From Bugula neritina (Eukaryota; Bryozoa; Gymnolaemata; Cheilostomatida; Bugulidae): 64,000 bases of DNA. The stretch spans positions 10,955,081 to 11,019,080 of the forward strand of contig OZ037767.1 of assembly GCA_964035545.1 (NCBI GenBank), written 5' to 3'. The position numbers were made by a program, and so were the translations under genes. Shown here in pieces: positions 15,716 to 44,663 of this stretch. The notes under the pieces were generated by a model. That model saw nothing but the letters and a program-made list of their open reading frames with translations, was not told the DNA's origin and did no database searches. How positions within the stretch are numbered: the stretch's first letter is position 1; each line of letters opens with the position of its first letter.

Positions 15716-17659
15716 TCAGGTGCGAGCAGCACGTCTCTTCCGCAGTAAGCGATGTAGACGGAGTAGTTCAAAATTGGTGCGAAGTATGTCTTGAGAAAGC
15801 CGGCAGAGCCTCTTCTCTAGTTTTGACACTTTTACTTCGATGTCATAATCCAGGGTATCTGTAGGTTCGTGATTTGTAGCCTTACTACACATTCGTTCTT
15901 TCTGCATAGAGAGTGATGCAGAGGGTGACAAAGACATGCTATGCTGGGATTGTGGAACCGGCTCTTTGATTGTACAGGGTTCTATCACTCTCGGTCTAGG
16001 TACAGAAGACGATGTGGAAAGGGAAGGAAGACTAGGTGAGCTGGGTGAGAGAACGGCTTGATCATGGCCACTTTCTATTACAGGCCGTGTTTTGGGAAAC
16101 CCTTGCAGAAGTAGCTTTTTCTGATTCTGATCAGTTACATGAGGGAGAATAAGCTCACGAAATTCCAAGAAACACTCCCTGTCTACCTCGAATGCTCTGC
16201 CAGCATAGCACTTTTTCGTCCGCTGATGCCGTAATATGTAATCCCGCTGAAAGCTGAAGACACCACACGGGCAGAAAGTGTTAGTGAAGTGCTGACGCAC
16301 ATGCAATCTGAGCTTTTTATGGGTAGTGAATGTCCCTTCACACTCGGCACACGATTTGTTGGTGTTTGGCCCACAAATGGCTTGGATCAGGGTACGTGTT
16401 TGCCGAGACGTCCAGTATAGCCGCGCAACTAGGACATGGGGAAGTTTCAATGAGTCTTTACAGTGGACGCCTGAATTCACAACAATAGTTAGCAGCTGGC
16501 ATCAGTATATAAATGATATATAAAGCCACTAGCCATCACAATTGTCACATGGCACATGTTCAAATTTGACTTTGTTAATAAAACCTGCATATTGTAAGTC
16601 AAAAAGTTGCAGTATAATCTTTTAAAAAAGTCAATAAGGATTTAAATTTAGCAAACAAAATAATAAAAACACATCTTTTATTGAAAAAAAAAAAAATTTC
16701 AATTGGTATCTATTCGAGCTGTAACAGAACATTTGATTTATGAATATAAGACAGCATAAATTCAGATATTTAATCTTCAATAATGATACTGAGCTGTACA
16801 GTTATTAGGTGCTGAATATATAAGTGAGACTATCAGATTTAGTACAACTATAAGTCGCCTCAAAAATTACCTTTCTCAACAACTTCCTCCTGACCATCAA
16901 ACGATGTAACTGAATTGGAGTTGTCTGCTTCTTCCTCTCTACGCTCAAAATACTCCACTTTAACGTCTAAAGAAAGTCATCTTAAAACAACAAAAATGTT
17001 GGAAACTTCCTTACACGCATTGCATTTCTCAAGCACAAATAATTTTTTTTCTTTCGATCAATGCGATGTAAACATCAACATTTATATTTTATCATAAAAA
17101 GGGAAAATAAGAAAACCTTCACTATATCTGCGCCACTAGACACTACGCACAAACAGCACAAGATACCACATGATTACTAACCATTTGGTAGTTCAACTTC
17201 TTCATTATACACATTAATAGATTCAAGTGTAGTGTTTACTCTTTCTACAGAAATATAGACATACTATACAATGTATACTATTAAAGTACCTACTAGGTGT
17301 GAATCTCAGCCTAGGAGAAAACTTAACCGGGCTTTGAAACAGCAAGTTGCTGCTAAAATTTGAGAAGCACAGACCACATTAAACTAAGACTCGGTTTTAC
17401 TCAAAAGCACCTTAAAATTGGAAAAACTCTGTAACTAAAATTTATATTGCCAGGAAAATATATGGACAGTGATTCAATAATTATATTCAAGTCGCAACTT
17501 TCAGGTCAAAACCTATCTTTAAAAGATATAAAATATTTTCAACTAGCGAGCCATATATTTACTCATAATAGCTAATACATCATTATATAAATTCATGATA
17601 CAAAACTACTGACCATCACAAATGTCATAAGGTACAGGTTCAGTCTTGACTTTGTTCAT
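15716..17659 (-). CDS. Gene A: zinc-finger/coiled-coil protein, host exons joined to a gypsy ORF3-type exon (319 aa)
   Basis: Four exons on the minus strand join in frame: 17614-17659 (ATG), 17182-17244, 16871-16966 and 15716-16470, total 960 nt. Exons 1-3 encode an acidic N-terminus starting MNKVKTEPVPYDICD and including VKVEYFE; VKTE and VKVE fit the SUMO-acceptor consensus. Exon 4 encodes a C2H2 finger (C-x2-C-x12-H-x3-H), a second finger (CPC-x12-H-x5-C), the motif LLLQGFPKTRP and a C-terminal leucine-rich coiled coil with basic tail RKRRAART. Exon 4 is clearly homologous to ORF3 of the gypsy elements E2 and E3 and to exon 4 of gene B. A nuclear DNA-binding role is inferred. The intact reading frame and matching phases argue it is a working gene rather than debris. 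Function unknown. Confidence 0.75.
16534..16579 (-). pseudogene. Relic copy of gene A/B exon 1 inside gene A intron 3
   Basis: The 46-nt block encodes INKVKFEHVPCDNCD, matching exon 1 (MNKVKTEPVPYDICD) in length and wording. Its start is ATT instead of ATG and the donor is GC (ATG|GCTAGT). It implies the exon 1 unit was duplicated at least three times locally. Confidence 0.65.
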
Positions 17660-18189
17660 AGTTGTATCAAGTCACTGGGAGTAACAACGCAAAGTCTGAT
17701 TTCGGTTTCGTATCTTTACTGCTATAATTACAAATGCACCCAGTTTTGATGATATACTGATTTTGTATTGTTGCACTACCATATTTCATATCTGTACTTA
17801 GTGCATCTGTTAGCATTTTGTTGTAGATGTTCATAAATGTCTTGAGTGAACCTTATAATATACATCATTAAAGATCATATCTCACAACTAGACAATTTTT
17901 ATAATTACTCACCCATAAACAATACAATAACCATTTTCAATATAACAAGATATAAACACTCAGAAAGATACAATTATAATATCATTACAATTAAAACAAG
18001 ACCAAATAAATCCTAACCATAAAAACAGTACTCTTAATATTCCTGAGTGCATGCAAATGTGGAAATGTTGAATTATGACTTTACTTACTATAAAACCAGC
18101 ATTGCTATGACCGTAATTATATTACTAAAGTTGCTGTTATGATTCAATATTAGTATGAAAATATTATTGATATACTTAAAAAAACTCAA

Positions 18190-21100
18190 ACAAACTGATA
18201 AATTGGGGGCATTCCTGGGACTGGTAGGGTACTACGGACAGTACATTGTAAGATTCGCAGGGATGGCACAGCCTTTGAATTGGCCAACTGCCAAGGGGTC
18301 CAGCGAGTAAAACATAAACACGGACACAAATGACCACAGAGTGAGGACTGTGTAGTCCCAAGTACAGCGTGGAACAGAGGTGGTAGCGGTTTATTACAAA
18401 AAAGGCGCTCTCGACATCCGAGAAAAACTGCTGCATCACCAGGAAGAAACTCCTAGCAGTAGGAAAGGCTATCAAGCTCTTCTGGCCGAATCTGTAAAAA
18501 AAATATTCAGGTTACCAACTGACCATAGATCGCTGATATGGCTGTGTAAATGTGCTGAACCCTCTAGTCTGGTGGCCCGTGGGCTAGCGATCCTTGCTGA
18601 GTTCTCCTACCGGATTGAACACCGTGCTGATAAGAAGGAGAACTGTAAGCAGTGCCCGCACATGAAATATAGGGATGGGGGCCGAGTTGCTTGATATCAA
18701 GGGTCAACTGAGGAAGGCTGGACCCTTTAGCAAGGATCAGGGCTTTTAAGGTTCAAAGGTCACCCTGACGCTGTCAACGCTTTCTTTGCCAGTTCCACTC
18801 TGTCTCTAAATGTCAAGAAGCTGTGCCGACTTCAGCAGACGCTGTCCGGCATTGTGGCTGACATCTGATTCAATTAGAATATGTCACCAAAAGAGGGAAT
18901 GAGTACTCTTTTGCTCACCCTCTGAGAGCTGATCTGGGAAACCCATAAACAGTCCAATGCAGGGGTCAGTCAGGTGATCAGATGTCTCTAGCTGCGGTGG
19001 TATTGACCCAGAATGACTCAGGACATGCAAGTGAGATCTGTAAGGCCAGCAAGCATACCTGTTCCCACAAGGTGACACCAGTTCTACACTGGCCGCCCGT
19101 GGTAGATAGTGACTGTGAACCTGGTAGGACCCATGCCGTTATCCGTCAGAGGTAGCACCTGGATGCTGGTGCTCATGGAAAATTTACCTGGTAGGAGAGA
19201 CGCCTTAGCTATTTTAAGTGCGTCAGCTCCCACACTCAGAGGAGTTCTCGCTATACCAAGTTGGGGGTTGTGTCTGGATGGTCAGCAATCCTAGCATGGC
19301 AGATAGTAAGCTAAATTTAAGCCCAAATTCATTCGACTACTGCGTCTTGGCGGCTCTGCCTAACTACACTTATCGTGTGGAACGCTCCGGGCAAATTTCT
19401 GTCTAGAGTAGGAAGCGGCTAAATCTGTATTGAGCCAGCCTCCATGTTGCTGGACAGGTCTCCCTATTGCTTGAGCCGGTCCGTCGACCAATCTTACAAT
19501 GGAGTGCAGCCTTGCCAGAAGAATGAGAGAATACTGTCAACAGGCCAGACAACACCTCTGATGAATGGACACCGCCTCCTCCACCCAGACTCCTGAATTA
19601 TAGGCCACCACAACCAGTCTCGACAGCACTGAGAGTAAAGGATATACCTACCCTAAAGGTGGGCAAAGGCAAAGTCACCCATGCTGTGCAAACCATAGAG
19701 CACCCCACCAAACGCCTCCTTTGGCCCTGTGGGTAGCTAGTGCGTCTAAATGCCCCCAGATACCTCACCGAATACCACGGCAGCTACCTGGAGTGGGAGC
19801 TCCAGAAGGTTATACGGAGAGGAGCACCTTATATTGCAGGGAACGACCCCTAAGCAATCAGGAAGTGGGCAGATGTCACAGGAACGAGAGGCTCCTTTGG
19901 ACGCAGAGAGATTGCCTCTGAAAATGGGAGACAACTTCAAAAAATTGGACGAGTGGACATAGGGGGTACATGGTTGGAAAAACCTAGAAAATTTCCCGCT
20001 ATCACCTTTCAACACGAGGTTCGGCCATTTTCAATCCAACCGTGGACTTGAGCAGGTGTCTTATTAATAAGCTAATGAATTAAAACATAGGAGAAGCAAA
20101 CAACATGGAGACTAATAAATACTAGGCCGCACTACAAGGTGCGTTACTAGAATTAGAACCTCCAGTATCGAAGTACAACCCGACAACTCCTACTAGTATT
20201 AAGGCAAATTCTCTGAAGAGAATGGAGACGAAGGGCCTGTTGAGACACATGTCTGCCTGTGTGAAACTGGTAGTGGAACCTCTGAACAACTACCTGCTAA
20301 ATCAGAAAATCGGGATGACACCCCCTAGCCCAAGAAGCCTTTCCATTTCCCGATAGACCCCGTACAAAAAAATTTCGAATTTTGGAATGCAAAATAGCCC
20401 AGTTACCAAAGAAAATGGTCAGCATAGGCCTGTTCTGCATATTGTAGAAGACAGCGACACTAAAGTCTTTACCAGGCCCGAAGTCGAGACTCTACATGAC
20501 TACGATCCTACACCAAATGCTTATAGGCCTGCTACCGAACACGTCGACATTGAATTGTTCTGGGGAAGCAGCGAACATTCGGAGCCCTGTGGAGGCCAGT
20601 TTTGTTGGAGATGAAGACACTGACGGGCTAGAGCTGCCACGGGTCTTAGATTCGAGGGAGCAATGAACCAGTAATGAGACAAGTCAACACATTGAAGAGG
20701 CCTGTGGTGGGCAGAGCAACACCCAGTGCTGTGTCAGTGTGAGCATACATTCTCCTCACTTTCAAGTGCATGTCCTTCAACACTACACCAATGTCTTATG
20801 CCCGTGTGGAGAGTTCAGCTATTAGTGGGACTATGTGCTGAAGTATCAGCGCATAGCCCGCTTCCAAACGACAGAAACATTTGTTGTTGATTTCGCCAGC
20901 TGCCGCCAGTTTGGCAACCACATTTTGCAACAGGTAGAAGACAATTTTATATAAAAATGGCACCGGTAAAATGGCACAGGTAAAAATTTGACAGTAAAAA
21001 ATGACACTGGTAATAAGGGCACAAATGGAAAAGTGGGAAAAAATGGCACACTGATGTAAAATTTGCCCAACCCTCAAACTCAAATCCCGATTCCCAAACC

Positions 21101-21330
21101 TAAACCCCCGTTCTAAACATCCAACCCAACCCCAAACTCTAATATTGAAAATGTGCCATTTTTTTCTCCTTTTCCATTTGCGTCCTTATTAACAGTGCCA
21201 TTATCACCTGTAACATTTTTACATATGCCACTTTTACTGGTGCCATTTTTACCAGACACCTTAAAGGACGCCCAGAAACGGGAATTGCTCTCTCTTGAGT
21301 TCCTCTATGTCGGCCAACCCGAGACAGGGA
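18190..21330 (+). mobile_element. E1: decayed Ty3/gypsy remnant (RT end to ORF3)
   Basis: Broken pieces follow the order of E3. First is the RT end (FLGLVGYYGQYI, about 18215), then RNase H (VVAVYYKK; LIWLCKCAEPSS; LAEFSYRIEH, 18380-18640). Integrase pieces follow (NLVGPMPLSVRG, about 19115; AILSASAPT), then the integrase C-terminus (LPNYTYRVERSGQ, about 19360-19400). The ORF3 second finger (LCPCGEFSY) and FVVDFASCRQFGNHIL lie at about 20755-20935, with the probable continuation LKDAQKRELL after 21262. Many stops and frameshifts occur, no LTRs were identified, and ORF3 is split by a foldback element. It is the same lineage as E2 and E3 but the oldest copy. Confidence 0.7.
20952..21253. repeat. 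Foldback (long inverted repeat) element inserted in E1 ORF3
   Basis: Left arm 20952-21050 and right arm 21147-21253 are imperfect inverted repeats. Both contain variants of AAAATGGCACCGGTAAAA and GGCACAAATGGAAAA. The loop is about 96 nt of C- and A-rich, CCCAAACC-like text. It interrupts the ORF3 remnant of E1 between ILQQV and the KDAQKREL stretch. Confidence 0.65.
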
Positions 21331-21843
21331 GGATGACGCCGAGTGCCAGAGAGTACTTGTATATACTAGTAAGATATTTCCAATATCTAGGCAGTACAAG
21401 ACTGGGAGCGTTCATCAACTACTACTGCTATTTATCACTTTTACGGACCAACTGGGCAAAACCGCGCCTGGGTTCTTTTTATAGGAGGCGCTCTAATAAA
21501 GTACTAGTTAACTGGCAATCTGTTTTAACTCTCATAACAAACGGGTTTATGTTCTCATCAGCTCAGTTTCATTGACAACCCACAAAATTATCCCAGTATA
21601 ACTATGAATATTCATTTAATCAGAGTAGTAATTATTGATAATGTTTAGAAACCGATAAGATCAACGGTCACATAACATTACAATAAAATTAAGTACCTAT
21701 TTATAGAGTTATATTAATATTGCTAGTGCAGCTCTAGCACTAGACCTAGTATGAAAAAACATTGCACAAATGATCAATTGAATAATAAAGTTTAAAATGA
21801 CAGACCATTGCCATAACTCACTTAATAACTGTAACTAGCGTGT
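21331..21843. other. Spacer between E1 and E2
   Basis: No gene was recognised. The ORF spanning 21153-21575 is a readthrough of the foldback arm and E1 debris. Confidence 0.4.
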
Positions 21844-22049
21844 TGTAGTGAGTCATGCAATGTACTAATATGAGAATCATCCTCTCTCCGTTCTGGGAAT
21901 ACTAAGGCCCCTATGTAGTAACCAATCAGCAGCACCGGAAGATATGCTTCCGACTCATGTGACAATTCCCGGGCAATTGACAATGATCACGTTGTTGTAA
22001 GAGAGGGCTTGAAGTAGAAACATGTGTTAGTAGTGACTGAATTACTACA
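21844..22049 (+). repeat. E2 5' LTR (206 bp, internally deleted)
   Basis: Matches the 3' LTR (26739-27083) but lacks about 139 bp between GTGACTGA and ATTACTACA. The missing part includes the AATAAA-type signal. The deletion edges share the dinucleotide GA. Confidence 0.85.
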
Positions 22050-22050
22050 G

Positions 22051-22067
22051 TGGTGGCAGCAGTGGGA
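22051..22067 (+). promoter_or_regulatory. E2 primer-binding site (tRNA-Leu type)
   Basis: TGGTGGCAGCAGTGGGA lies 1 nt after the 5' LTR. It complements the 3' end of metazoan tRNA-Leu (TCCCACCGCTGCCA plus CCA) with one mismatch. Confidence 0.75.
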
Positions 22068-22069
22068 TC

Positions 22070-22765
22070 TTGCGTATAACAGTCGTGGCAGAAGACGGTA
22101 CGGAGCTACCCATTCCACTGAATAAAGGTGAGGAAGATAATGTTGATATACCTGTGGAACCAGTAGTGTTAGAAAAAGTAAGAATCCCTAGAGAGCCCGG
22201 TGAGGATAGATACCGGCTGAAGGCGCCCACCTTCACAGGCGAGGAAGCCGTAGAGCAATTTATCCAGGATTTCCAAGATGTGATGGAAGTTGCACGGTGG
22301 CCACCAAGGGTGGCGTTGCTCAAACTCAGGATGGCGCTGACGGACAAGGCTAAGCCATATGGAGCGGGATCTGACATAGACGGGATCTTTGCTTCTCTGC
22401 GAGCCCGTTTTGGTATCTCCGCCATAGATGCGCGGGCCCGCCTACAAAGGCTGCGGCGTGATCCTCACACGCCGCTGCAGAAGCATGCTACCACGGTGAT
22501 GACACTAGCGCAGATCGCGTTCCGCGATCTGCCTCAAGCGAACCGTGAGAGGTATACTTATGATGCCTTCGTGCAGTCCATCAACGACTTGGGGCTCCAC
22601 CATCAGTTCCAAGCAAGGGGAGTCGCCACGGTCGAGGATGCACTCGCGGTGGGAGAAGCCTACCTTTTGGCGACTCACAAGCACCACAACTGCGTGGCCT
22701 CCCGCCAGGTGGCCACGGAGCACACTACTGCTCATACTGAACCAATGCGGAACCCTCCGCGGTAG
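22070..22765 (+). pseudogene. E2 gag (start codon lost, frame broken at 3' end)
   Basis: The retrotransposon Gag core aligns with E3 gag: LKAPTFTGEEAVEQFIQDF, KAKPYGAGSDIDGI, RARFGI, ERYTYDAFVQSINDLGL. The open frame starts at TTG with no ATG, and ends early at 22763-22765. Gag-like text continues in another frame to about 23027, including a zinc-knuckle relic (CWGRGRPGHF with an in-frame stop before KNC) that E3 has lost. Confidence 0.75.
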
Positions 22766-22978
22766 CTAATGTGACCCAGATGTCGGTAGCATCGAAAGTT
22801 GCACAGATGACTGACATGCTAGCCAATCTGGTCGCCACATTAGCTCCCCAAGCCAGGTAGATACCGCCCGTGAGCCTTGCGGGCCGCAGGTACAATCACC
22901 AGGCACGGGGCATAACTTCTGCTGGGGACGCGGAAGGCCAGGACATTTCTAGAAGAACTGCCCCCAACTCCAACAAGG

Positions 22979-23023
22979 GTTAAACTACCACGGCCCGCAG
23001 ATGTTCCCACTTCCTGCGGGCCG
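22979..23023 (+). promoter_or_regulatory. E2 -1 ribosomal frameshift signal
   Basis: Heptamer GTTAAAC (22979-22985), 5-nt spacer TACCA, and a perfect 10-bp hairpin (22991-23000 with 23014-23023, arms CGGCCCGCAG/CTGCGGGCCG) lie just before the gag-frame TAA (23028-23030). The same arrangement occurs in E3. Confidence 0.7.
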
Positions 23024-23175
23024 CCGGTAAATCACCCAAGGAGGACAACGCGTCTGCCGCCCCGCTGGGCGCCACGCGGAGATGCTGTGAAGTGGCGACC
23101 CCCACGGCAAGTAGGCTGCTCAAGCCACTCGCCACCTGGGTCCTCTAAGCCACTCCAACAGGATCCGACAGACAG

Positions 23176-25399
23176 TTGATCTCAGAGCCTGCGAGGGAAA
23201 CGGTACAGGCGCCGCAAGGCGTACCGCCCCAACCTCGGCAGCTGGTCAATAGTCGTCGCCAACTGTGGACCCCTCGACCCACAGCGAGAGAGGTGCAACC
23301 ACGACACACACAGATGCAGCCACACGGAAGTAGCTACTTCCTGCCAGGAAAGCTAGCTGGCAAGCCTGCCATTTTCCTTCTGGACTCAGGCTGCACCACC
23401 AACCTCCTTAGCCGTCAGTTCTTTGACACCCTCAGCGCTAAGGTCAGGGACGGTCTGGCACCGTATGAAGGGGACCATGGCACCCTGGCAGACGGGTCGT
23501 GCATTCCCTTCTACGGCAATATTGAGCTGACTGGTTACATCCGTAACCAGGCCATCCGGGAGACGTTTATCGTCGGACAGCTCAACGAGGATGCTATCCT
23601 CGAGATGCCATTTTTACAACGACACGGATGTCGCATCGATTTCAGTAAATCTGCGATGATCATGGGCGACAGGGAGCTCGCCTGTGTCAATAAGTTTGGT
23701 CGTCCTCTAGCGGGAGGAGTGCAGGTAGTACGGAGCTGTACGATACCAGGCCACTCCCGGGCTACCGTCCGCTGCAAAGTAGACGGTAGCCAGACCTCTA
23801 GGTTGGGAGTTGTCGAAAGTACGCACTCAAGAATCCAACTTGCCCATAGCTTTAGCTGGCTTACGGGACAAGGAGAGATCTCAGTGCAGTGCGTCAACCC
23901 TTCCTCAGAGACGGGAGACCTACCACCCAGGTCCATGCTGGGCCGCTTCCATCCTGTCCAGGAGGAAGCCATTGGGCCGTCGTCGGGAGCTACGACGGAA
24001 GGTCCTCAGCAGAGCCCGTCTTAAGGGCGGAGGACCGCCCCAACCCACGCCTCCCATCCTCCAGGGACGCGTGGCTAAACAGGCAACGGAAAGCGCCATG
24101 CTATGGCTATGTTGCCACACAGGTACAGTGAGGCGCCCCGCCACACAGACCATGGCGCCCGCCTAAATAGAGTGGGCCGTCGTGAGGTACCACGGGTGGC
24201 GAAGACCGCCCCTACTCGGCAGCCCACGAGGAGGTTGGGCCGAAGAAGAAGAGCAGAGTTCCCCCGCGGTCCTCGTTGTCAACACGGAACCCGGGCCAAC
24301 TCCAACAGAGGGCTGACACGCCCCCGGAGGCCGTCCAGAGCCTCCGCGCCAAACCTGTATGGACTGGTAACGTTAGGGAGCTACCGAAACTCCAGGAAAG
24401 CCTTCCTGGGGTGGTAGCCGACGTGTACCGAGCGAAACAGGAAGGGCGACGACCCAGCGGTAGACAATGGCGACAGGGATGCGCCGAGTTACGGCTGTAC
24501 TGTCAACGTTGGAACTTCCTGCGGGTCGGGCCAGATGGTCTGCTGACCATGACTTTGGCCGCCAACAGCAGACAACCAGCTAGGAAGAGGATCATCTGCC
24601 CAGCTGCCATCCGCCGGGAGTTGATACGGGACACCCACGAGCAGACTCACGGAGGAGTCCAGGGGGTGATCACCAAGCTACAACTCCTGTGGTACTGGCC
24701 CAACATGGAGCGGGACATCCGGCGCAGAGTGAGACGGTGCGAAGTCTGCCAGATCAACAAGCATAGCCGTCTCCCTGGTGAAGCGGGGCGGCAGACGCAT
24801 TGTGCGAGAAGGTCTTGGCAAGCGGAGACTGTCGTCCTGGCCGGAAACACCCCCATGACTCCTCAGGAAGACTTGGCGAGGCAGGAAGGCCACTTCCGTT
24901 CTTGGAAGTGCGCCCACCGCTCCCAACGTCAAGCCTGCCACCACCACCACTTCTGGAACCGGAATCGGGTCCAGAAGTGCAAACCCCCCCTCCCGTGGGA
25001 GGGGCTCCATACGGAGATACCAACGTAGGAACAACCGTCACAAACAGGCTGGAAAAACCACCCGTGAGACATAACAATCCACGGGTGAGCACACCGCCTC
25101 TCACAGTGACGACGCCTCCAGGACCACACACTAGGCAACCCCCAGCGTGCCTCGGAGACTTCGTACGTGACCGCGTTACAAGCGGCAGTTATGAAAGTCT
25201 AGCGAGGTCTTGTATGGGAAAACAGGCAAAGAGACGTGGGAGTTGTGAACACCACGGAAATCTCAACTTTTGCCTCGGCGGAATCTCACACGAGATTCAT
25301 CCGCTGGAAGTAAAAAGCCCTAGTCACGCTTCACAACCACGCTGCCCGGTCTTTTCCTACGCTGATGTAGTCAAGAGTAGACGTGCCACTAAAAATTAA
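23176..25399 (+). pseudogene. E2 pol: protease, partial integrase and C-terminal tail
   Basis: The protease region (FLLDSGCTTNLLSRQ, about 23380) is open to 24024. After PVRQPTRRLG-like text (about 24210) the sequence jumps past RT and RNase H to the integrase zinc-binding region, with DTHEQTHGG and CEVCQ in the 24276-25028 frame. It jumps again past the integrase core to the tail (PEVQTPPPVGGAP; FSYADVVKSRR), ending at 25399. Relative to E3 about 1.3 kb and 0.9 kb are missing and several frame changes separate the parts. No enzyme except perhaps the protease could be made. Confidence 0.8.
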
Positions 25400-25422
25400 T
25401 CATTTACCGCTCTCATTCCAAA

Positions 25423-26480
25423 ATGTCCTACTATTCTGGATCGAAGGGTGAGTTAATTATGTTTTTGGTACGGGAATTAGACTACATCAGTCAGCTCTAA
25501 CTACACCAGTTAGCGAGCTGGAGATTCGATAATGAAACACAGTGGTGGGAACACACGTCGACTTTGATTTTAAATAATCTGCCATAGCGAGTGTGTTCTC
25601 GATCAACTATTCATTAGCCTGAATCTCACGAGTGTAACTGAACAGAGTACCTGTCAGGCTGTACACGCCGGCGGTACCTCAGTGTATAATCGTTAACACT
25701 GCTACTCTTTCAGATCACATTCGAGTGACCACCTCCCGGTCACGGGATCAGCCAACCCCTCTACCTATGGAGGAAGAACCTGTGATGGAGAATGGCTTAC
25801 CGGTGGTGCTTCGTCGACGACACCACTGGGTGTCACCCACGACGGAAAGGAGGATTGAAAAAGCCTGGGGACCAAGTGGACCCCACCGGACCTGCCAGGT
25901 CTGCTTCAAGGAGTGCCCGTCACACCGCTCCTTGCATCTGCATGTAGACGCACACTTTCTACTACATTTCTGCCCATGCGGATTCCACGATGTATACCCG
26001 TGCCCTGTGATCGTCCATAAATTGAGCTGCTTCGCCGGAGAGGGCCATATCGTTGATGAGGACTGTTTCCCCCAGTACCTAGACACCATCAAGCCGGTCA
26101 TCAAGAAGGCTATCACACCGGCCGCACTAGTGTCAGGGTTCCAAGTACTACTGTTATCCGCCCGCCATAAGTCTCCTATGGTTCAGGCCCCGTCCACTAC
26201 CCCCGTCAACCCTAGCAACACCCCCGAATCAGAAGGAATGACGATACCCCCAATATCAGAGACTGCTACAATCCCACCAGGACCTAGCCGATTGGCTAGT
26301 GTAGAAGAGCGGCTTGTAAAACTACAAGCCGAGTTTACGCAACTTGCCCCTGACCTGCTGGATACGACGACAGGCCTATACCAGCTGAAGGACTCAGTGG
26401 GGCGACTGAAGCGGAGGCTACGTGCCCGACAGGCTCGACACAGATCACGCTCACTACAAGAGTCAGAGCCCACCCAATGA
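25423..26480 (+). CDS. E2 ORF3: zinc-finger/coiled-coil protein, spliced leader exon predicted
   Basis: Leader exon 25423-25447 (ATG, 25 nt) ends in a phase-1 donor (AAGG|GTGAGT). The acceptor at 25713 (CTACTCTTTCAG) continues in frame to 26480. Without splicing the long ORF has no ATG before about 25768. The protein has a C2H2 finger (CQVC-x12-H-x3-H), a second finger (CPC-x12-H-x3-C) and an acidic stretch (GHIVDEDCFPQYLDTIKPVI). It ends with a coiled coil (VEERLVKLQAEFTQLAPDLL) followed by a strongly basic tail. No signal peptide or membrane segment is seen, so it is not an envelope. The frame is intact although pol is destroyed. Role unknown; nucleic-acid binding is likely. Confidence 0.75.
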
Positions 26481-26701
26481 GTATGCCTGGGGTAGGCACC
26501 CTTCGGTAAAATGTATCCTCGTCTGTGAAGTGACCCTCTTTCTCTATAGCTGACTAGCTGTGTGTGTTCGACCACCCTGTTTACTTCTATAAATGCTTGT
26601 GTACTCAACTATTTCTCTTCTTCCTTTTTGTGGGTTCAATTATGTATTCTTTTTTGGATTTTTGTATTGTTTTTCTTTGTATGTGTTTTTTTTTGTGTTA
26701 T

Positions 26702-26738
26702 CAGAAAATAGGGCTTTCTGCTGGGAGGGGGGGGTCGG
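26702..26738 (+). promoter_or_regulatory. E2 pre-PPT hairpin and polypurine tract
   Basis: CAGAAA (26702-26707) pairs with TTTCTG (26715-26720). The G-rich tract GGGAGGGGGGGG follows, then the 3' LTR. The same hairpin-PPT order is seen in E3 and beside gene B. Confidence 0.65.
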
Positions 26739-27083
26739 TGTAGTGAGTCATGCAATGTACCAATATGAGAATCGTCCTCTCTCCATTCTGGGAATAATAA
26801 GGCTCCTATGTAGTAACCAATCAGGAGCACCGGAAGATATGCTTCCGACTCATGTGACAATTCCCGGGCAATTGACAATGATCACGTTGTTGTAAGCGAG
26901 GGCTTGAAGTAGAAACATGTGTTAGTAGTGACTGATGTTATAGTGTAATCTGATGTAATGTTTGTTTTGTATTGTGGATAATAAACGTCATTACTCGACA
27001 GCTACCCTAGTAATTGCTAGTAGAATAGCCAACTAAATACGCAAGTAGAAAACTCACGCACAGTAATTGCACGAATTACTACA
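26739..27083 (+). repeat. E2 3' LTR (345 bp, full length)
   Basis: TGTAGTGAG...ATTACTACA. It contains ATAATAAACG near 26980, a likely poly(A) signal. Confidence 0.85.
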
Positions 27084-27457
27084 GTGCGATACCAAACCCA
27101 AAATTTAGTAATAAAATTAGAGAGCTTAGACTATTTCAATTTCTCCACTACTGATCCTAAATGAGCTTAAGAGCAATGCTGAGTATTACTATTAGTATTA
27201 CCATGTGATTAGAGTTACTAATTTTTATAGTTTCAGTTCATAAACATAATAATTAAATTTTCCATAATTACTATCCTTATGATTATCATGAAGTAAATTT
27301 GTGTCTGACACCAGGTGTCACTATTGACGGTAAGTAATCTCACTTAACAATGAGGGTCGGAATAGAATTCCCTTGTGCGGAAAACTAATTAAACTATCTA
27401 ATACTGTTTGTTGCCAAATTATTTGCTAATGTGATTTTAATATTTTCCAGTGACTAT

Positions 27458-27800
27458 TGATTTCTGGTGTTCGGTAACAGTGCTGAAGTGTGATAGGGAC
27501 ACGGCTATGGTTCGCCGATTTATATCACAGCAACTGTAGTCAGAGACAGTGACAGAAATCTGATTCCTGATGTTCGAATCGCAGAGACTCGACAGGAATT
27601 CCGCAACGCAAGAGAGTCACTACAGTGGAAAAATGATTTCTGGTGTTCGGTAACAGTGCTGGAGCGTGACAGGGACACGGCTATGGTTCGCCGATTTATA
27701 TCACAGCAGCTGTAGTCAGAGACAGTGACAGAAATCAGATTCCTGGGATTTGAATCACCGAGATTCAACAGGAATTGCAGCGCAAGTAATCACCATTGAC
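27458..27800. repeat. Tandem duplication, 176-bp period, about 1.9 copies
   Basis: Both units start TGATTTCTGGTGTTCGGTAA (27458 and 27634) and share TATGGTTCGCCGATTTATAT and GTCAGAGACAGTGACAGAAA, with about 5-10% divergence. No coding sense was recognised. Confidence 0.75.
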
Positions 27801-29460
27801 AAACCTATAGAAACTAACCACCACTATTGCCAACTCAATAGCAACCTAATCAAAGAGCAGAGTATTTCGCAAAGAATAAAATTTATTATATTTATAAGAG
27901 TCAATTATAAACATTACAACAGGCAACAGTCGACTGACTGCTACTAAAAATTACAACTCTATTTATATCCATATTACGGACGTCTTGGAGCACAAAACGG
28001 ACGTCTTGGGGTACAACCAATTATTTACATACAAAAATTTTATAAAACTCAACAAATTTAATATAAAATTAGCATTACAACTTGTATCAACCAATCACAA
28101 TATATCAAAATTAGTTGACCTAGCTTTGAGTTAGTTAAATTATTGCCAGAATGATTTAACTTGCAAGTCCGATAAAAATCACCTTGACCTAGTCTCTATA
28201 TTCACAATATTGTTATTGGGGGCCGTCAACTTGACGCAACGTGTACTGCTCGATGGCTCTAATAATATTTTTTACTACAATCATAATGATAATCATAATG
28301 CGCAACCTTTTTCTGGGTCTACGACTACTGGTTCTAGTCTCAGTCATTATCACTCAGCCTCACATTGTGACTGTCAGTGTCACTGACAGTCCGAGTGTGA
28401 GTCTTACCTAACAGTCACTGTGACTGCTACTCAACATATCGAACACCAACGGCAACAGTAGCTTAGTGTCAGTGTGAGTGTTACATTTGTCAATTGTTAG
28501 AAACATAAACAGTCACCATCAGTGTTACTGCTACTGTTAGAAATAGGAACTATACGTAGTGAATATCTATAAGACTTACAGATACAGAAGGAGGAGTCGG
28601 TGTGGTATTTGACTATAGTAATAGTTTGCTGTTAAATGTTATACTGTGGTGAATTTTAGCTATCTATATTGTTATTCCCCTAATGAGTTAGTAATCACAA
28701 ATTAGTTATAGCTAGTAGATAACGGCAATGCAATTCGTGCGCATGTAACCAATTATGACTAGCAATTCTTTGAATAGTATGCCGATTAGTTGACGCTGCA
28801 TACTGAGCCATACTTCTAATCGGCATTAGGAGAGCTGACGGCAACTACGACGCTGCATAGTAGCCGCATGGACTGCGACACAATGGACCGCCCGTACTGA
28901 ATGCACTCGATGCGTATGCCTAATCGCATTACCATAATAGGCTGTCGTGCTGGCTATCACTATGCCTACCCAGCCTCACGGTATTACTATTAGTGAGTGC
29001 GTATGGTGTCCTCTATTATGCTGCATTCAGACTACCGTTAAACGTGACCCATGAATACCTTTGATGAGCTTAGAAATGTAACCAACCCATAACATTGTCA
29101 CCATGGCTACTTTAGAATGCCAAAGTATACTTTTAGTTTTGACTATATTCTGGACAAAATCGACCACGGGCAAGTAATTTATATCAAATATTATTCAATA
29201 ACGATGAACTATTTTTGTTAGGTATGTCGATTGTTTACCCATGGCTGCTTTGACTCAACTTCAGTACTTGATTGTGGAAAACATAATAATTTATATTAAG
29301 CCAGTTTTAAATAAATGCAAAATACACTCTGGCAAACAGTAACATTATCAGTAGTACTTGACACACAGCAGACTAGAAAATAACGAAGTTTGCCTATGCT
29401 TTGTTGAGTTTTTTTTCTAAGCAATAGACCCTTTTCACAAGTCTATTTAGGGGCATTTGT
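27801..29460. other. Intergenic, simple and palindromic repeats
   Basis: Nothing coding was recognised. Notable are a short direct repeat ACGGACGTCTTGG (about 27976 and 27998) and a degenerate CAGT/GTGAC-rich stretch (28340-28560). The latter includes a palindrome at 28369-28391 with 11-bp arms, GACTGTCAGTG/CACTGACAGTC. Confidence 0.5.
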
Positions 29461-29465
29461 ATTTT

Positions 29466-29507
29466 AAAATTGTCTCCTCCCACCGGTCCAAGGGAGGAGA
29501 CAATTTT
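29466..29507. repeat. Perfect 16-bp hairpin followed by a T run
   Basis: AAAATTGTCTCCTCCC (29466-29481) pairs perfectly with 29492-29507 across a 10-nt loop. The second arm runs into seven or more T. It may be a tiny foldback element or a structured transcript end. Confidence 0.6.
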
Positions 29508-30089
29508 TTTTCTATAAGGTATCATTGTCATTCTATTGGTATCATTGGTACCACTGTTGGGAATTGTTTATAATAACTGCCATACTATCTGGGATGAAAT
29601 GTTTCCAATCCACCTCAAACCTTCTAGTACTCCTGTGAAGTATGCCTGATCCAAATTAGCAAGAGTTTTGCAGATAAATATAATTTTTTACACTGCTTAG
29701 GTAATGGCTACATGCTAATAAGCATCATTACAATATAAGTTTGTTAAATTCAATTCAACCCCTGGTTAACATAACTTTTTTGTAATTAATTAGTCTTTTA
29801 AGCTTAACAATTATGCCAGCTAAATATAAACATCATTATCACAATATTTGACTCAAGTCATGAAAAATACATTTTGTTGAAGGTAGACTTGCATTCATAT
29901 TTTTAGTATTGCACTTGTTTGATAATGTTATAGCATGTATTATGCTTGCAGGTGCTTTGGATGGAAAGCATACTTAAATATAGCCTTGGAGCCGCCTGAA
30001 TTTTTACATGTAAAAAATCAAGCGGCCCTCCATTCAAGGCTCTGAGTTTTTCAACTATAAACAATTACACTCAGTCAATCTTAATATTA

Positions 30090-30660
30090 ACATGGCTATG
30101 TGTGATACCGAGCAAAAATTCACATTTATTGATGTTGATCAACCTGGGTGTTGAAGTGATTCAGGAGTATTTGAAGTTTTGGAAATGCTTTGCTTTATGG
30201 TAAATTATTGCATTTTCTCTCATATTTAAAAGAAACAAGGGCTTTGATTGTGAAAAAATTGTTGATTAAATTTATGTTTCATATGTTTATGTTTATGTTT
30301 CATATGTTTCTACACGTAATTTATCATGTATGTAGGTATATTTACAGGCCATATCTCACTGTCCCATGAAGAATCACTTTAAGATTTTCCAACCCCCCCC
30401 CCTCACACTGCTTTGTGGCTGATAAAACCTTACCATTAAGAACCTGGATTACGACGTGGAGATATCTAGATAAAAAAGACTTTACAACTAAACTATAGAC
30501 TGTCTAGAGTTAGAAGAGCAATTGAAAACGCCTTTGGTGTCTCATCATCTAGATGGAGGCTTCTTCTCACATTAGGGGATCCTGCTAACATAGTTTGTAT
30601 GGTAAAACAATGTGCTTGCTACACAATTTTGTGAAAACTCCGGAGCCTGTACTTTATAGA
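30090..30660 (+). pseudogene. PIF/Harbinger transposase remnant
   Basis: Fragments of the DDE_Tnp_4 domain: FTFIDVDQPG then SDSGVFE after a stop (30115-30175), and YRLSRVRRAIENAFG followed by SSSRWRLLLTL (30495-30565). These match the conserved DVGxPGxxSDxGVF and NYRLSRARRxIENAFG blocks of the family. The N-terminal half is absent and frames change. A MADF-type partner remnant lies downstream on the opposite strand, as is usual for Harbinger elements. Confidence 0.7.
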
Positions 30661-31379
30661 CTGTTGTAGTTCTGTGCACCACTAATTGGGGGTTTATTGT
30701 ATACACGGAATGCTACTGCTTATTTAACTATCAGGTTATGTAAAGAACCGAGATACCTAGTTGACATTTCATCAAAAACTGTATTAGATGTCTAATTACA
30801 TACAATTGGAATCATGCAAAATATTAAAGTACTATAATATCAAAAGCAGTTGTATAAGGTTATCCTTGTTTATCTACAGTTTATATCCAAGAGGTTGGTC
30901 TTGATTAGCCAGTGTAGGGAGTGATGCACGAAGTTGCGGCATTGCTAACAGTGTTGTAGTCTCTTGGAACTTTAGGCCTCATAATACAATACAAGTACTT
31001 AGGTAGTGGGTACTGGGGGGTATACTTTCCACAGCCACTACATAGACCACCCGGATTTGTGGATTCTAAAGATTTGGTTAATGGTAACTGGAGAAATGAA
31101 GATTTTAATTTTAATGTCACTGCAAGATTCTAGGAATTCTACTAGAAGTGCTAACAATAAGAGAGAGAATTTCTGCAGATAATTCAATTCCAATCTGGGC
31201 AGTGTAAAATGGCGGAAAAACTATTAATTAAACCACTTGGAATAGTTGCAAAAATCATTTATTTCAAATAACAGATGTATGTGTTGATAAAATGTCTAAT
31301 TTTATTTAATTATGTAAATAAAAAATACTTTTCTATAGTTTCAACAAATACTAGTATGTAACATGATAATCATGGTCAT

Positions 31380-32480
31380 TAAAAAACGTTGAAGTAACCT
31401 TTTCACTCAAAGCCTCACCAACTGTTTGTAGCAATTTTGCTCGAGTTAAAACTCTTTTAGCTGGTGGCAAATGTCGCAGCTGGGAAGATAGATTTATTGC
31501 AAAATGATAACCATCATCTTGTTTAATCATTTTATCGATGTTTTCTTTTATATAGTGTCAAACTGCTTTAAAAAGCTTGGTTCTGTTTGCTTTCTCTTCA
31601 TTGCCTTAGGTGTTTTTTTATGAAACAGAGCCACTCACAGTTGAGCTGCAGTTGCTGATTGCTGAAACATCAGAATTTAGAGTTCAGGACAATTCCTATT
31701 CTGCATTAACATTTACTGAGATTGATGGTGGTGAGCTAGAGGTAGTGGGCAGTTCTTGTGGTGACGCAGCTTGGATTGCAGACTCTTCTGCCTGTGAGTC
31801 TGAGAACTCTATGGGTATACATAGTTACTGTTTGTACTGAAAGAACAAGACTTGCAATTTCAGTCACAAAACAAAAATGTTTTATATCAAATCACTTTAC
31901 CAGTTTTAGTTTGAAACCGTGCAAAACACATTAAAACAAGATTGCTGAGTTTATATACTTTGATTGTTGTTACTGCCCTTGGCAAAAATATGCTCAATAA
32001 ACAAATTTTTCCCAAAAAAATTGCCAAGAAGATTCCCAAAACTTGGTAACAAGTCTTCCGCATAACCTGGGTATAAACATAACCTAGCAAAGGTAGGGCA
32101 CACACAACGGTCACCCAAACCACAATGACATAACCATGCACAGATCTAGTAGCCAGCAAAAAGCATGTGTTTCAAGACATAAATAGGAACTTTAACAAGC
32201 TGGTGACGTCATGGTTATTTCAACAACATGGTGATAAATGCTGTGGGTATTACACAGTCATCTACAATTGTGTAGACTTTGATGATGTATGCTAAAACTT
32301 GACACATAATTTTTTTTCTTATAAAAGTTCCAAAACCATTGCATGTTGTCCCAAAGCTGCCACAACAGCTTTTTTAGCATTGCTGCTTCTTCAGTAAGTT
32401 TTTTGACATTTGCTGCATATGAGTCACGAATATCCTTCCACATCTTCATTCTAGACTCAACTAAATCTCTATCGCACACA
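31380..32480 (-). pseudogene. Harbinger-type MADF/Myb-like partner ORF remnant
   Basis: On the minus strand, CDRDLVESRMKMWKDIRDSY and KKLTEE (about 32370-32480) resemble a MADF DNA-binding domain. The C-terminal part YHFAINLSSQLRHLPPAKR followed by VLTRAKLL (about 31410-31540) matches the usual end of such proteins. The middle is not continuously open. Together with the transposase fragment it marks one old element; its termini were not found. Confidence 0.55.
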
Positions 32481-32739
32481 CCTGCCCACACACAAACACA
32501 ATATTTTCTAAATTTATGCTTGATTTCTAGTAATAAAAAATGATTGAATCTGTACAATTTCACAAATTCCAAGGGTGTTGAGTGTCAATATGGCACAACT
32601 TTTGAGTACTATTGAAGCCAGTTGTGGTTAATAACTATATTGTTGTAATTTTATGCTGCATGGTTATTGCCAGAGTAAAATAACTAGGGGCACTTAAGAG
32701 GCTAATGCTACACCCAGAAAAATGCACTCAATTTGTCAG

Positions 32740-33304
32740 GAAATGAGAGAGAAAATGAGAATTGCCAGTCAGTGATAGTGTATTTGAGACCTGCTAACTA
32801 GAGAGTCCAGGTCTGACTCTTTACAGTAGACTAATAGTCAGAATATAATGCAATTATATAAGAGCAGAACGTTACACAAAAACTGCTTCAACCCAACTCA
32901 CTGGCTGAGGCAGTCCACCTCACTTATATGAGTTGGACAATTCATCCTGATTGGATGACTGTTCAGACATCTAAATCAGCAGATTTGGAACACCTAAAAC
33001 CCCACCCAAAGTCCCAATCAGCAGTCGGGCTCCCCAAATGCCAGTTTATGGAATTTGACTAAGCTGACGGACTATATCAATCTTACACCAGTATTTAAAA
33101 TTAGCCAATCAACACACAGGGAGTACAAACATGATAGAAATATAAGAATACACATGTTGAGTATAAAAGTAAAAATATTGATTGCTGGAACTGTAAGGCT
33201 GAGGGCACACAGTTGCTTAATACTGGGGCAAGGTTATAACACATAGCGCCACAGGCTATGTAAGGGGGATAATAATATAATGCCCGGCCAAATCTATTAC
33301 ATCA
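32740..33304 (-). repeat. Putative 3' LTR of the gypsy copy that gave gene B exon 4
   Basis: Reading the minus strand after the gene B stop, the hairpin CGGAAAG/CTTTCTG (33335-33329 and 33323-33317) is followed by GAGAGGGC and then TGATGTAATAG at 33304. This is the same hairpin-PPT-TG order as E2 and E3. The G- and C-containing text after it (TTTGGCCGGGC) and a TATATAA (about 32860) fit an LTR. The far end is not defined, so 32740 is a guess. Confidence 0.4.
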
Positions 33305-33596
33305 GCCCTCTCACATCAGAAAGCACGCCTTTCCGATAGAGAAGAGAAGACGACGACAACAAGAAATAAATAAAAGTTGAGATACAAGATGAAAAACGGA
33401 ATTTTAAAATGAATTGATAGTACAAGAATAAAACAAAAAACTGACTGGTTTTATCGGATAAGAATAGGTACAAAAAATGTTATAAAGAACAGTGTGAAAA
33501 GCATTACTATTGGAATGTTCACTTGTAGATGCAATAATGATACTATTATATATAATGAGTAGCACCGGGTCTATGGTAGGACAGCAGTCGCCAGTG

Positions 33597-35537
33597 TTAG
33601 GAGTGGGATTCCTGATTGCAGAGATAATGTCTTAGTCGGGTAACCTCTGCCATGCACTGCTCCAGACTCCCAGAGAGAGAAGCGAGTCGCCCTTCAAGGA
33701 TTATCAGACGGTGGCTTACTCCAGTGTCTGGGACAGAGGGGGGGTCACAAGATCCCGTGCTTCTTCTTCGCCGTCGTCGGTATACTGGTCCTGAAGCTTC
33801 CAAAGAGGGGGGTGCCGGTGGTATGAAGGCGTTGAGGCTAGGTGCAGTTCCCATATTAGGCAACACCACTGGCAAGGGCTGTGTACGAGGAGGGTCACTT
33901 CTTGGGTGACAGATATTCTCCTCGTCTTCTGAAGTGGGTCTGGTAGCGGGGAACCCCTGTAGCAGCCGGTCTCGCTTGTGCATGTCTTTTACATATGGAA
34001 GAATCAGGTCCCGAAACTCAGCAAAGCTAGTACTATCCACCTCGAAGATCTTGCCCATGTGGCAACGGGCTAATCTTTGGTGCTTGAGTAAATAATCCCT
34101 ATTGTAACTGTACTCGCCACACAGGCAGAACGTGTTGGTGAAATGCTGAGGCACGTGCACCCGTAACCTCCTATGAGAAGTGAAGGTCCTCCGACATTTA
34201 CGGCATTTAATGTTACTGGGGTCGCCACAGATGGCATTGATAGCTGCACGGGTTTGAATGGAGGTCCAGTGCGACTGCATATCCAAGGCGCGTGGCAACC
34301 GGATTTCTGCTGGTGTGGGTGTCGCCTCAGGGGGGATTTGCACAGTAGTCGGTGGGGTAATTGGAGGAGTAGGTAGAGTGTAGTACACTGTGAGTGGCAA
34401 CAGGGAGCCGGCAACCTTGCTAGGGTGTAAGAACCCATCAGGTTGGGCTGAATTGCATCCCTCATTACTGGAATGAGTCTCACCTACAATAAGAGCAGCA
34501 CCATGAGTAGGGCGACATGAGCAAACCAAACAGCTCCACTGGCTCCGTGAAAGGGTTAATGCACTGCACCAGGAACTCCCCTCAACCATTCAGCCGATTC
34601 AGGCTGTTGGCGAGCTGTACCTTCCTGTGCACCCCTTCTACGACTCCAACTCGGAGATTTCCCTACAGTTCACAGTGCAGTGTAGCCTGGGAAACAGGGT
34701 TAGGTCTTTGACGCAAGCAATTTAGTATAATTAAATGTCAGCTCTAAAAAATTGTGCATGCATTACCTGTCTCAGCAACTTCCTCATGACCATCAAATGA
34801 TTTGACTGAATTAAAGTTGTTAACTTCTTCCTCTTCAAGCTCAAAATACTCAACTTTAACATCTAAAGAAAGTTATATGGAAGTAACAAATAAAAACATT
34901 GGCAAATTTTTACTTTCATTGCATCTCTCAGGTTAAAATGAACTTATTTTCTTTTGATCAACATGATGTTAGCTTCAATTTTTATATTCTATCATACAAA
35001 AGGAAAGTGAGAAAACCTTCACTATATCTGTGCCACTAACACTATACACAGACAACACAAGATGCCATATGACTACTAACCATTTGGTAGTTCAACTTCT
35101 TGATGACACACATCAATAGATTCAGGTGTTTTTACTCTTTCTACAGACACATAGACATACTATACAATGTATACCAGAAAAGCACATACTAGGTGTGAAT
35201 CTCAGTCTAGAAGAGAATGTAATCAGAAAGTAGATGGTAACGCAGGCTCTGAAACTCTGAGTTGCTGCTATAATTTGAGAAGCACAGACAACACTACACT
35301 AAAACTCAGTCTCACTCAACAGTACTTTAAAATTAGAGAAAATATATTTATAACAAAAATTTACATTGCCAGTAAAATACATGGACAGTAATTTACAGGC
35401 AGTCAATGATTTCATATCTGGTTTAAACACTAAACATTTTGAATAGTTGGTACCTAGGCATCATTATATAAATAATACAAAGCTACTAACCATCACAGAT
35501 GTCATGAGGTACAGGTTCAGTTTTGACTTTGTTCATA
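33597..35537 (-). CDS. Gene B: paralogue of gene A, host exons joined to a gypsy ORF3-type exon (362 aa)
   Basis: Exons 35492-35537, 35081-35140, 34767-34862 and 33597-34483 total 1,089 nt and stay in frame. Exons 1-3 (MNKVKTEPVPHDICD; VKVEYFELEEEEV) parallel gene A in length and phase (46, 60, 96 nt), and introns 1-2 also align with those of gene A. Exon 4 encodes a proline/threonine-rich linker and CRKC-x12-H-x3-H. The second finger CLC-x12-H-x5-C, FEVDSTSFAEFRDLILPYV, LLQGFPATRP and a C-terminal coiled coil follow. The exon 4 acceptor is CTTATTGTAG at 34484. Directly upstream in intron 3 lies a gypsy protease-region fragment, and downstream a hairpin/PPT/LTR-like end, so exon 4 sits inside a truncated retroelement. 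It is a host-retroelement chimaera with an intact frame; function unknown. Confidence 0.75.
34515..34720 (-). pseudogene. Gypsy protease-region fragment in gene B intron 3
   Basis: Minus-strand translation gives GVVEGVHRKVQLANSLNRL and, after a stop, EFLVQCINPFTEPVEL. It aligns with E3 pol GVVESAHEKIQLASSLNRL and VLVQCVNPFTEPIEL (40868-40990). It contains stops. In E3 this region is about 3.7 kb from ORF3; here it nearly touches the ORF3-type exon, so the RT-integrase part was deleted. Confidence 0.8.
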
Positions 35538-38866: not shown

Positions 38867-39171
38867 TGTGGTGGCTCGTGGAGCTACCAGCAACACAATA
38901 CGCAAGGTTGCGTATTGACCCGGAACAATGTATTAGCCAATTAGCTAAGCTGTTTGATAAGTAATAGTAGCCGCTTCGCGCTACTAGCTCAGTTGAGGAT
39001 AGTGCTGTAAACTAAATAGACATGCGTATCATTACTGTTGTACATTGGATTTTTATTATGTATTCTTGTATTAAATATAACGATATCTACTCGACTTAAC
39101 TGGTGAAGTTTCTCTAGTGTTAAATAGACTCTCTTGGTGGCACATCAACCCTAAATCTGAAAACTATAACA
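38867..39171 (+). repeat. E3 5' LTR (305 bp)
   Basis: TGTGGTGGC...CTATAACA. It differs from the 3' LTR at two sites (T/A in AATGTATTAGCC, A/G in ATAGACATGCG). Confidence 0.95.
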
Positions 39172-39172
39172 G

Positions 39173-39189
39173 TGGTGGCAGCGGTGGGA
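39173..39189 (+). promoter_or_regulatory. E3 primer-binding site (tRNA-Leu)
   Basis: TGGTGGCAGCGGTGGGA begins 2 nt after the LTR. All 17 bases complement the 3' end of a typical metazoan tRNA-Leu, including CCA. Confidence 0.85.
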
Positions 39190-39204
39190 TAGTGTATATC
39201 AAAG

Positions 39205-40071: not shown

Positions 40072-40359
40072 AGGAGTATGGTGGAACGCGACGTCGTCTG
40101 TCCGTACGGACACGGCGGAACATTCCACCCGAGTGGCAGGTACCACGCAGGACTAGTAGGCCCGCACAACGGCCCAGTACCTTCTCCCTGCCACTCGCTA
40201 ACCGGTTTCACCGGTTACCTCGGGAAGAGGAGCCCGCCACTGAAATGGAGCCAGAAGGCCCAGTGGAGAGGCCCAAACCCCGCCGGCACCAACCTCGCCG
40301 CCGGAAGCCCCGTAAACCACGGGTGAAACCCCCGCCGTCCTGTCAAACCAGGACAGCAC

Positions 40360-44646: not shown

Positions 44647-44663
44647 GTCTTGTATTCCTATTC

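Follow-up and report, generated by a model that had tools for sequence, protein, structure and literature searches.

Background

The SCAN domain is homologous to the Gag protein of Gmr1-like gypsy elements, and the available text of PMC4592553 describes SCAN-zinc-finger genes in which a gypsy/Ty3 coding piece is joined to a C2H2 finger gene family. Host-transposase fusion genes such as KRABINER and SETMAR (Cosby et al. 2021, as cited in the available text of PMC12062965) combine a host regulatory domain with an element-derived DNA-binding domain, and the BTB/POZ-integrase-zinc-finger fusions of the ZBTB11 type, covered in the same text, carry a retroelement zinc-binding piece in a finger regulator. 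On the side of the elements, the additional open reading frames (ORFs) of long terminal repeat (LTR) elements known as ORF3 are typically expressed from spliced messages (PMC5408684, in the text available), and the spliced accessory protein CERV of Cer1 is needed for nuclear export of the element RNA and has a cysteine-rich region that may bind zinc (PMC10309623, likewise in part). Here we describe two genes, A and B, in a stretch of 64,000 nucleotides of the bryozoan Bugula neritina (assembly GCA_964035545.1, contig OZ037767.1, positions 10,955,081 to 11,019,080 of the forward strand; hereafter the window), each of which is predicted to join a module of three short host exons to a last exon homologous to the ORF3 of gypsy elements.

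As far as the available text of these sources goes, A and B resemble the host-transposase fusions in their combination of domains, but their element part comes from an LTR retrotransposon's accessory ORF and not from a DNA transposase, and they probably reflect two captures in copies of one host module, with an acceptor that resembles the element's own. SCAN genes keep their fingers and have their SCAN domain from Gag, whereas A and B are without a finger array and their source is ORF3; in genes of the ZBTB11 type the integrase piece is N-terminal and the C-terminal finger arrays are kept, unlike in A and B. The source ORF3 is, like CERV and the ORF3s of bdelloid elements, an additional LTR-element ORF with spliced messages. 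Some bdelloid ORF3s have coiled coils and CERV is a cysteine-rich candidate for zinc binding, a likeness by description and not by sequence; both are still element genes, whereas the fourth exons of A and B are predicted host exons. In the openly licensed literature, judged by title and start of abstract, we found no earlier description of an ORF3 captured as a last exon in this manner. What appears new in A and B, and differs from the known fusions, is that an LTR-element accessory ORF would replace a finger array, probably twice, by means of a kind of exon that is able to bring its own acceptor.

Structure of genes A and B

We interpret A and B as chimaeric host genes in which the exon module of a C2H2 family leads into a gypsy ORF3 as last exon, the two last exons having most likely been captured separately and the products being predicted nuclear nucleic-acid-binding regulators. 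We give this reading a probability of about 0.65. Both genes lie on the minus strand, about 16 kb apart, and have an animal-type gene structure (Table 1). The joined exons give 960 nt for gene A and 1,089 nt for gene B with a single terminal stop in each, each of the six introns has GT-AG boundaries, and exons 1, 2 and 3 all end in phase 1 in both genes. The coordinates, which we re-derived, agree with those of the initial annotation, which had described two minus-strand loci with three homologous short exons, an ORF3-like exon and matching phases. Its proposal of an acidic N-terminus with SUMO motifs is confirmed as well: this part of the protein (68 residues in A, 67 in B) has 19 aspartates or glutamates against 7 or 6 lysines or arginines, and two psi-K-x-E motifs of the SUMO type, VKTE and VKVE, occur in A as in B. 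An element-derived coding exon thus stands in frame with host coding exons in both genes at the level of DNA, and splicing that joins them is predicted from the gene structure.

Exon 4 is homologous to the ORF3 of elements that have pol. The best non-self match in the genome has E 6e-52 for gene A and E 4e-68 for gene B, and ORF3 was found at a minimum of 150 places with exon 4 of A (at least 150, from the best 150 of 912 candidates) and at least 133 with that of B (the best 133 of 919). Over 30 aligned ORF3 sequences 14 columns are invariant, among them four cysteines and two histidines. A DNA search with gene A exon 4 and its 3' flank gave no other copy in the genome, and a search for LTRs, gag and pol around the ORF3 of gene B found the protease-region fragment in intron 3 only. 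With no such set around the ORF3 of A or B, neither qualifies as a still-mobile gypsy element. The gypsy debris that had been noticed around gene B is therefore present as a pol fragment, but it belongs to B only, none having been found by DNA search from A; it matches at least 39 other places in the genome at 78-83 % (from the best 40 of 229 candidates). In the 3' flank of gene B, positions 32631-32963 match repeats elsewhere (C4:12928020 at 73 %, and others) and could be either an old LTR or a repeat of unrelated origin.

Exon 4 of gene A has no in-frame ATG preceding its fingers, so that an upstream exon is required. This bears on another explanation, which we consider quite improbable, namely that each exon 4 is a domesticated ORF3 gene in its own right, driven by a separate promoter, and that the upstream module belongs to another gene or to a dead one. 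A locus of this appearance exists in the genome: Y (C4:9884067-9884891; L065, L084, L085) is an ORF3 that has an ATG of its own, is 90 % identical to an open relative and has no significant match to gag or pol in its surroundings; we regard it as a candidate stand-alone domesticated ORF3. In gene B an ATG is present some 36 codons before exon 4, but it lies within the protease debris of the intron, and the module donors are intact and in phase. For gene A, we reject a stand-alone ORF3 gene because of the missing ATG.

A host C2H2 family and the direction of capture

We searched the genome for the exon 1-3 module as DNA and for exon 3 as protein and found 13 copies of exon 3 in six genes, namely A, B and those at C1:6.08 Mb, C4:2.63 Mb, C1:20.13 Mb and C8:12.03-12.05 Mb. 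Exons 2 and 3 are present in all six module genes found, while exon 1 is clear in five (A, B, C1:6.08, C4:2.63 and C8) and weak (E 0.074) in the gene at C1:20.13 Mb. In four of the six the module leads on to an open frame that encodes canonical C2H2 fingers in tandem (by Pfam for three of the four); only in A and B does an ORF3 follow the module. None of the 13 copies found sits in a multi-copy element containing the module, and no remnant of a C2H2 array of the TGEKP-linker type was found in the window.

Since the module leads into a C2H2 array in four of six genes and no copy lies in a multi-copy element, the ancestral state would most simply be a module followed by a C2H2 array, with the element exon added later. 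Likewise, the array in the other four genes and its absence from the window suggest that A and B are derived chimaeras and not ordinary family members. These results support the direction of capture given in the initial annotation, in which a host gene took the ORF3 of an element as its last exon. The reverse, a gypsy element that transduced the host module and carried it, is very improbable and we reject it: the module does adjoin ORF3 twice, but all of its copies found are in the six genes, its introns are retained although RNA-based transduction tends to lose introns, and exon 4 of A with its flank has no other copy by DNA search.

The gene on C8 (C8:12032271-12049312; L009-L011) consists of one exon 1, eight tandem pairs of exons 2 and 3 and one C2H2 frame. 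With this exon array the SUMO-type motif could be repeatable up to eight times.

ORF3 has its own splice acceptor in one element family

We scanned 28 element loci, A and B excluded, for an intron in ORF3. A short ORF3 exon 1 (MSNAATVLG...) is present in 25 of them, and in 23 of these 25 it has the donor GTAAGT and an acceptor GCAG/GTGAGACT (the slash marks the splice site) 265-285 nt past the ATG. The locus L017 has the GTAAGT donor and no acceptor motif. In L018 (C5:10511950-10515669) exon 1 is joined directly to GTGAGACT with the intron precisely missing; compared with L020, L018 is without 240 bases at this point, the flanks on either side being about 99 % identical, and it is best read as a reverse-transcribed spliced copy. 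This intronless copy shows that the ORF3 intron is removed in vivo, in phase 1, in one element family.

The acceptor of gene B, TTGTAG/GTGAGACT, resembles that of the intron-bearing elements, which suggests that the element probably supplied it. As the trees described below put B outside the intron-bearing family, homology of the gene B acceptor to the ORF3 acceptor of that family is likely but unproven. The acceptor of gene A, GAATTCAG/G, lies next to the breakpoint and a few residues before the conserved core, so that A is without the N-terminal part of ORF3.

A B-type acceptor is also found at the locus X (C4:24605007-24605911; L082, L064, L083), an ORF3 in sense orientation within a phase-1 intron of a p66/GATAD2-like gene (P66_CC match, E 9.3e-7). 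X and gene B have 39 nt around the acceptor in common at 90 %, and when up to 3 mismatches are allowed, the acceptor signature of B and X occurs in the whole genome at these two loci only and not at all in a reversed control. The host exons on either side, one ending at C4:24603064 and the other beginning at 24607008, join in frame across the intron, and the ORF3 exon at 24605007 is likewise in frame with the first of them. Within the 7 kb that we examined near X there is no significant match to pol or gag. The downstream host exon, which gave nothing significant in Pfam and nothing in PDB, may resemble the second conserved region of GATAD2. It is possible that the ORF3 of X is an alternative last exon of a chromatin-repressor subunit.

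Two captures are favoured over one

The initial annotation proposed a single capture followed by tandem duplication. With gaps set aside, A and B are 80 % identical upstream, 93.5 % in exon 1, 79 % in intron 1, 90 % in exon 2, 80 % in intron 2 and 83 % in exon 3. The DNA match over these parts (blastn 75 %, E 3e-172) stops at the end of exon 3, and the two fourth exons are 38-39 % identical in amino acids with no blastn match at E 1e-5. The homology of the two genes as first described accordingly holds for exons 1-3 and introns 1-2 but is not close in exon 4.

Intron 3 leaves the host sequence at different points. In gene B this occurs after about 47 nt (by eye). In gene A about 220 nt (16852-16631) match the host intron 3 of other module genes and are followed by an exon-1-like relic that had been overlooked; it is 78 % identical to the start of exon 1/intron 1 of A and B (blastn E 6e-10 and 3e-14) and may be a used exon. 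A similar relic before the C2H2 exon of the gene at C1:20.13 Mb is possible but weak (tblastn E 1.5; by eye).

Phylogeny of ORF3 had been suggested as a check of the single capture. We built one tree of 53 rows and a second of 40 rows, from which 21 were omitted (winE1, which is long, and 20 further rows that are mostly near-copies) and to which 8 were added. Exon 4 of A falls with the intron-bearing family in both trees (92/90 in tree 1 and 95/88 in tree 2), and exon 4 of B falls with other families (X, Y and the L066 family in tree 1, 80/84; 87/92 in tree 2). A clade of A and B is not rejected by the approximately unbiased (AU) test in tree 1 (p 0.106) and is rejected in tree 2 (p 0.032), while a clade of B and X is not rejected in tree 2 (p 0.286).

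Taken together, introns 1-2 that are alike next to fourth exons without a DNA match, unlike breakpoints and different element families favour, but do not prove, two separate captures after duplication of the module. A single capture would call for an exon 4 that diverged fast or for gene conversion that homogenised exons 1-3. A and B are on the same strand with the same intron phase and the first AU test permits this history, but conversion must then have halted at exon 3 in a pair already 20 % diverged in its introns, exon 4 must have lost any nucleotide match next to introns that kept 79-80 %, and neither the breakpoints nor tree 2 agree with it. We therefore consider a single capture improbable but keep it as a rival explanation.

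Predicted proteins and a possible mechanism

The AlphaFold model of gene A exon 4 shows a core of high confidence (blocks 11-130, predicted local distance difference test 86-96), a disordered linker and a C-terminal helix of 46 residues. For residues 30-87 of the model, weak alignments (Z mostly 2.4-3.9) were obtained with many DNA-bound C2H2 pairs, a Foldseek search of PDB with the model gave nothing at E under 1, and in Pfam the fourth exons of A and B gave sub-threshold zinc-finger matches only and no SCAN domain. The model is consistent with two atypical fingers and a coiled coil.

We propose that the host family encodes C2H2 poly-finger proteins in which an acidic module with two SUMO-type motifs and phase-1 introns normally leads into a last exon with a C2H2 array. 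In A and B the array would be gone, and the phase-1 donor of the module could splice to a gypsy ORF3 exon instead. Most likely the module was duplicated first and the two last exons were then captured in separate events, and the acceptor used in B, which is in the right phase, probably came with the element as that of its last exon. The predicted proteins would start with the acidic N-terminus of the host, followed by a core of two fingers derived from the element, a disordered linker and, at the C-terminus, a helix that we read as a coiled coil. They are most likely nuclear, probably dimeric nucleic-acid-binding regulators, and their target may be the nucleic acid of the element itself or its ORF3 protein. 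Given the RNA export role of CERV and the spliced messages of ORF3s, as stated in the available text of PMC10309623 and PMC5408684, RNA binding is as likely as DNA binding.

Possible selection on the putatively captured exons

We compared the ORF3s without nearby element genes, A, B, X and Y, each with a relative among the predicted proteins of other assemblies. Gene A exon 4 is 81 % identical to P0001 over 243 aligned residues (78 % in BLASTP), B 92.5 % to P0002 over 294, X 85 % to P0013 over 301 and Y 90 % to P0003 over 288. P0002 and P0013 extend into the intronic sequence leading up to the acceptor (35 and 31 aligned residues), which suggests that they are probably the same loci as B and X.

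The replacements are conservative when pooled over the four ORF3s, with a summed BLOSUM62 score of -29 against -79 to -88 expected (P 0.0005-0.0045 for kappa of 1, 2 and 4; stops excluded). Singly, with stops scored, P is 0.0013 for A, 0.014 for X and 0.095 for Y, and the count of positive-scoring changes gives 0.011 for A and 0.20 for Y. Differences are rarer in the core and helix than in the linker and N-terminus (61/676 versus 83/450, p 7e-6), also when X is left out (50/505 versus 48/320, p 0.035). In the host part, exons 1-3 of A and B are less substituted than introns 1-2 (25/202 versus 111/540, Fisher p 0.010). The results for exon 4 suggest, but do not show, selection on the captured fourth exons, weakest for B.

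A number of observations weigh against our interpretation, to which the first AU test and the weak fold matches described above, with the empty Foldseek search, also belong. The joining of exons in A and B is known at the DNA level, and the acceptor of gene A has a poor pyrimidine tract. A protein database as source of the relatives favours intact frames. Gene B taken singly gives no signal of conservative replacement (P 0.26) or in the count of positive-scoring changes (P 0.71), and the difference between core and linker is singly significant only in X (p 0.051 for A, 0.12 for B and 0.33 for Y). The control, the 35-residue intronic part of the B frame, scores as conservative as well (4 of 6 differences, P 0.018), so that the test is not specific, and we have graded our reading lower for this reason. 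Exonic and intronic parts do not differ in identity in the B and X frames (68/595 versus 9/66, p 0.55) or in B alone (p 0.10), and the differences do not cluster significantly along A, B and Y. Finally, the ratio of nonsynonymous to synonymous rates in exons 1-3 of A versus B is 0.49 by NG86 and 0.96 by YN00 and, over 67 codons, uninformative.

One explanation for such results is that ORF3 pieces inserted beside module copies whose own last exon was lost, and that they decay there without splicing, the open frames and phases being coincidental. Intron 3 of B, which is partly gypsy debris, would fit this, as would the DNA-only basis of the splicing and the absence of a signal in B next to its presence in the intronic control; phase-1 introns are, moreover, common. 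On the other hand, both fourth exons have open close relatives in other assemblies, the pooled replacements carry a signal of constraint, exon 4 of A cannot start without an upstream ATG, and exons 1-3 have accumulated fewer substitutions than the introns between them. We regard decay in juxtaposition as unlikely and prefer chimaeric host genes.

It is conceivable that ORF3 acts more generally as a plug-in last exon. Carrying a phase-1 3' splice site, an ORF3 inserted in sense in a phase-1 host intron would provide an in-frame tail of fingers and coiled coil, and this may have happened repeatedly in nuclear regulators (twice in the poly-finger module and once, possibly, in a p66 of the NuRD type), yielding host factors that recognise the nucleic acid or the ORF3 protein of the element and so restrain it. 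We offer this extension as a tentative and rather doubtful hypothesis.

Features of the window and other ORF3s

The features of genes A and B and of the two gypsy elements of the window are collected in Table 1. Upstream of gene B on the same strand, positions 36288-36836 (minus) hold an open frame of 182 residues with one weak C2H2-like finger. A degenerate ORF3 fragment with stops, about 38 % identical to exon 4 of A, lies at 20622-20942 on the plus strand.

Table 1 Features of genes A and B and gypsy elements, in positions of the window
Feature	Position	Strand	Basis
Gene A exon 1, 46 nt, ATG, VKTE motif	17614..17659	-	GT donor; 93.5 % identity with exon 1 of B
Gene A exon 2, 63 nt, phase 1-1	17182..17244	-	AG/GT sites; 90 % identity with B exon 2; host genes on C1, C4 and C8 have homologues
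Gene A exon 3, 96 nt, phase 1-1, VKVE motif	16871..16966	-	13 copies found genome-wide, all in six genes
Exon-1-like relic (or cryptic exon) in gene A intron 3, 51 nt, open, phase 1-1, GC donor instead of GT	16530..16580	-	blastn
Gene A exon 4, putatively captured ORF3, 755 nt with stop: two finger-like motifs, disordered linker, long C-terminal helix	15716..16470	-	ORF3 homology; relative P0001; AlphaFold model
Gene B exon 1, 46 nt	35491..35536	-	Re-derived coordinates, phase check
Gene B exon 2, 60 nt	35081..35140	-	Re-derived coordinates, phase check
Gene B exon 3, 96 nt	34767..34862	-	Exon-3 protein search, phase check
Gene B intron 3: host sequence over about 47 nt (by eye), gypsy pol protease-region debris, ORF3 acceptor	34484..34766	-	pol match 62.5 % in amino acids; host-intron alignment
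Gene B exon 4, putatively captured ORF3, 887 nt with stop, start TATTGTAG/GTGAGACT	33597..34483	-	ORF3 homology; acceptor comparison
Second gypsy element, LTRs 96.4 % alike, without full-length pol frame, ORF3 at 25638-26480	21844..26935	+	LTR pair, ORFs
Gypsy element, LTRs 99.3 % alike, pol ORF, own ORF3 (44637-45737), source-type relative	38867..46310	+	LTR pair, ORFs; Pfam RVT_1, RNaseH, rve

Elsewhere in the genome many ORF3 matches lie within open frames of about 1,980-2,000 residues, and in L043 the end of pol is in frame with ORF3. Other ORF3s have a separate ATG or an intron, which makes at least three ways of expressing ORF3. Three ORF3 copies, one with a stop, occur within about 12 kb at C1:33079152-33091399, possibly as a small tandem family. 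For one match (C2:22724076) the listed open frame is 63,007 residues long, presumably masked sequence.

Conclusions

Retroelement capture by regulator genes is already known in vertebrates (SCAN, transposase fusions). In Bugula neritina an accessory ORF has its own phase-1 acceptor in one element family, and related ORF3s recur in the genome as predicted last exons or within introns that fit. If our interpretation is true, this would be a concrete and testable reason why some elements are captured repeatedly. The loci, namely A, B, the intron of the p66-like gene and the stand-alone copy, allow captures to be dated and compared, and A and B would illustrate how a mobile element can give its host a ready-made last exon.

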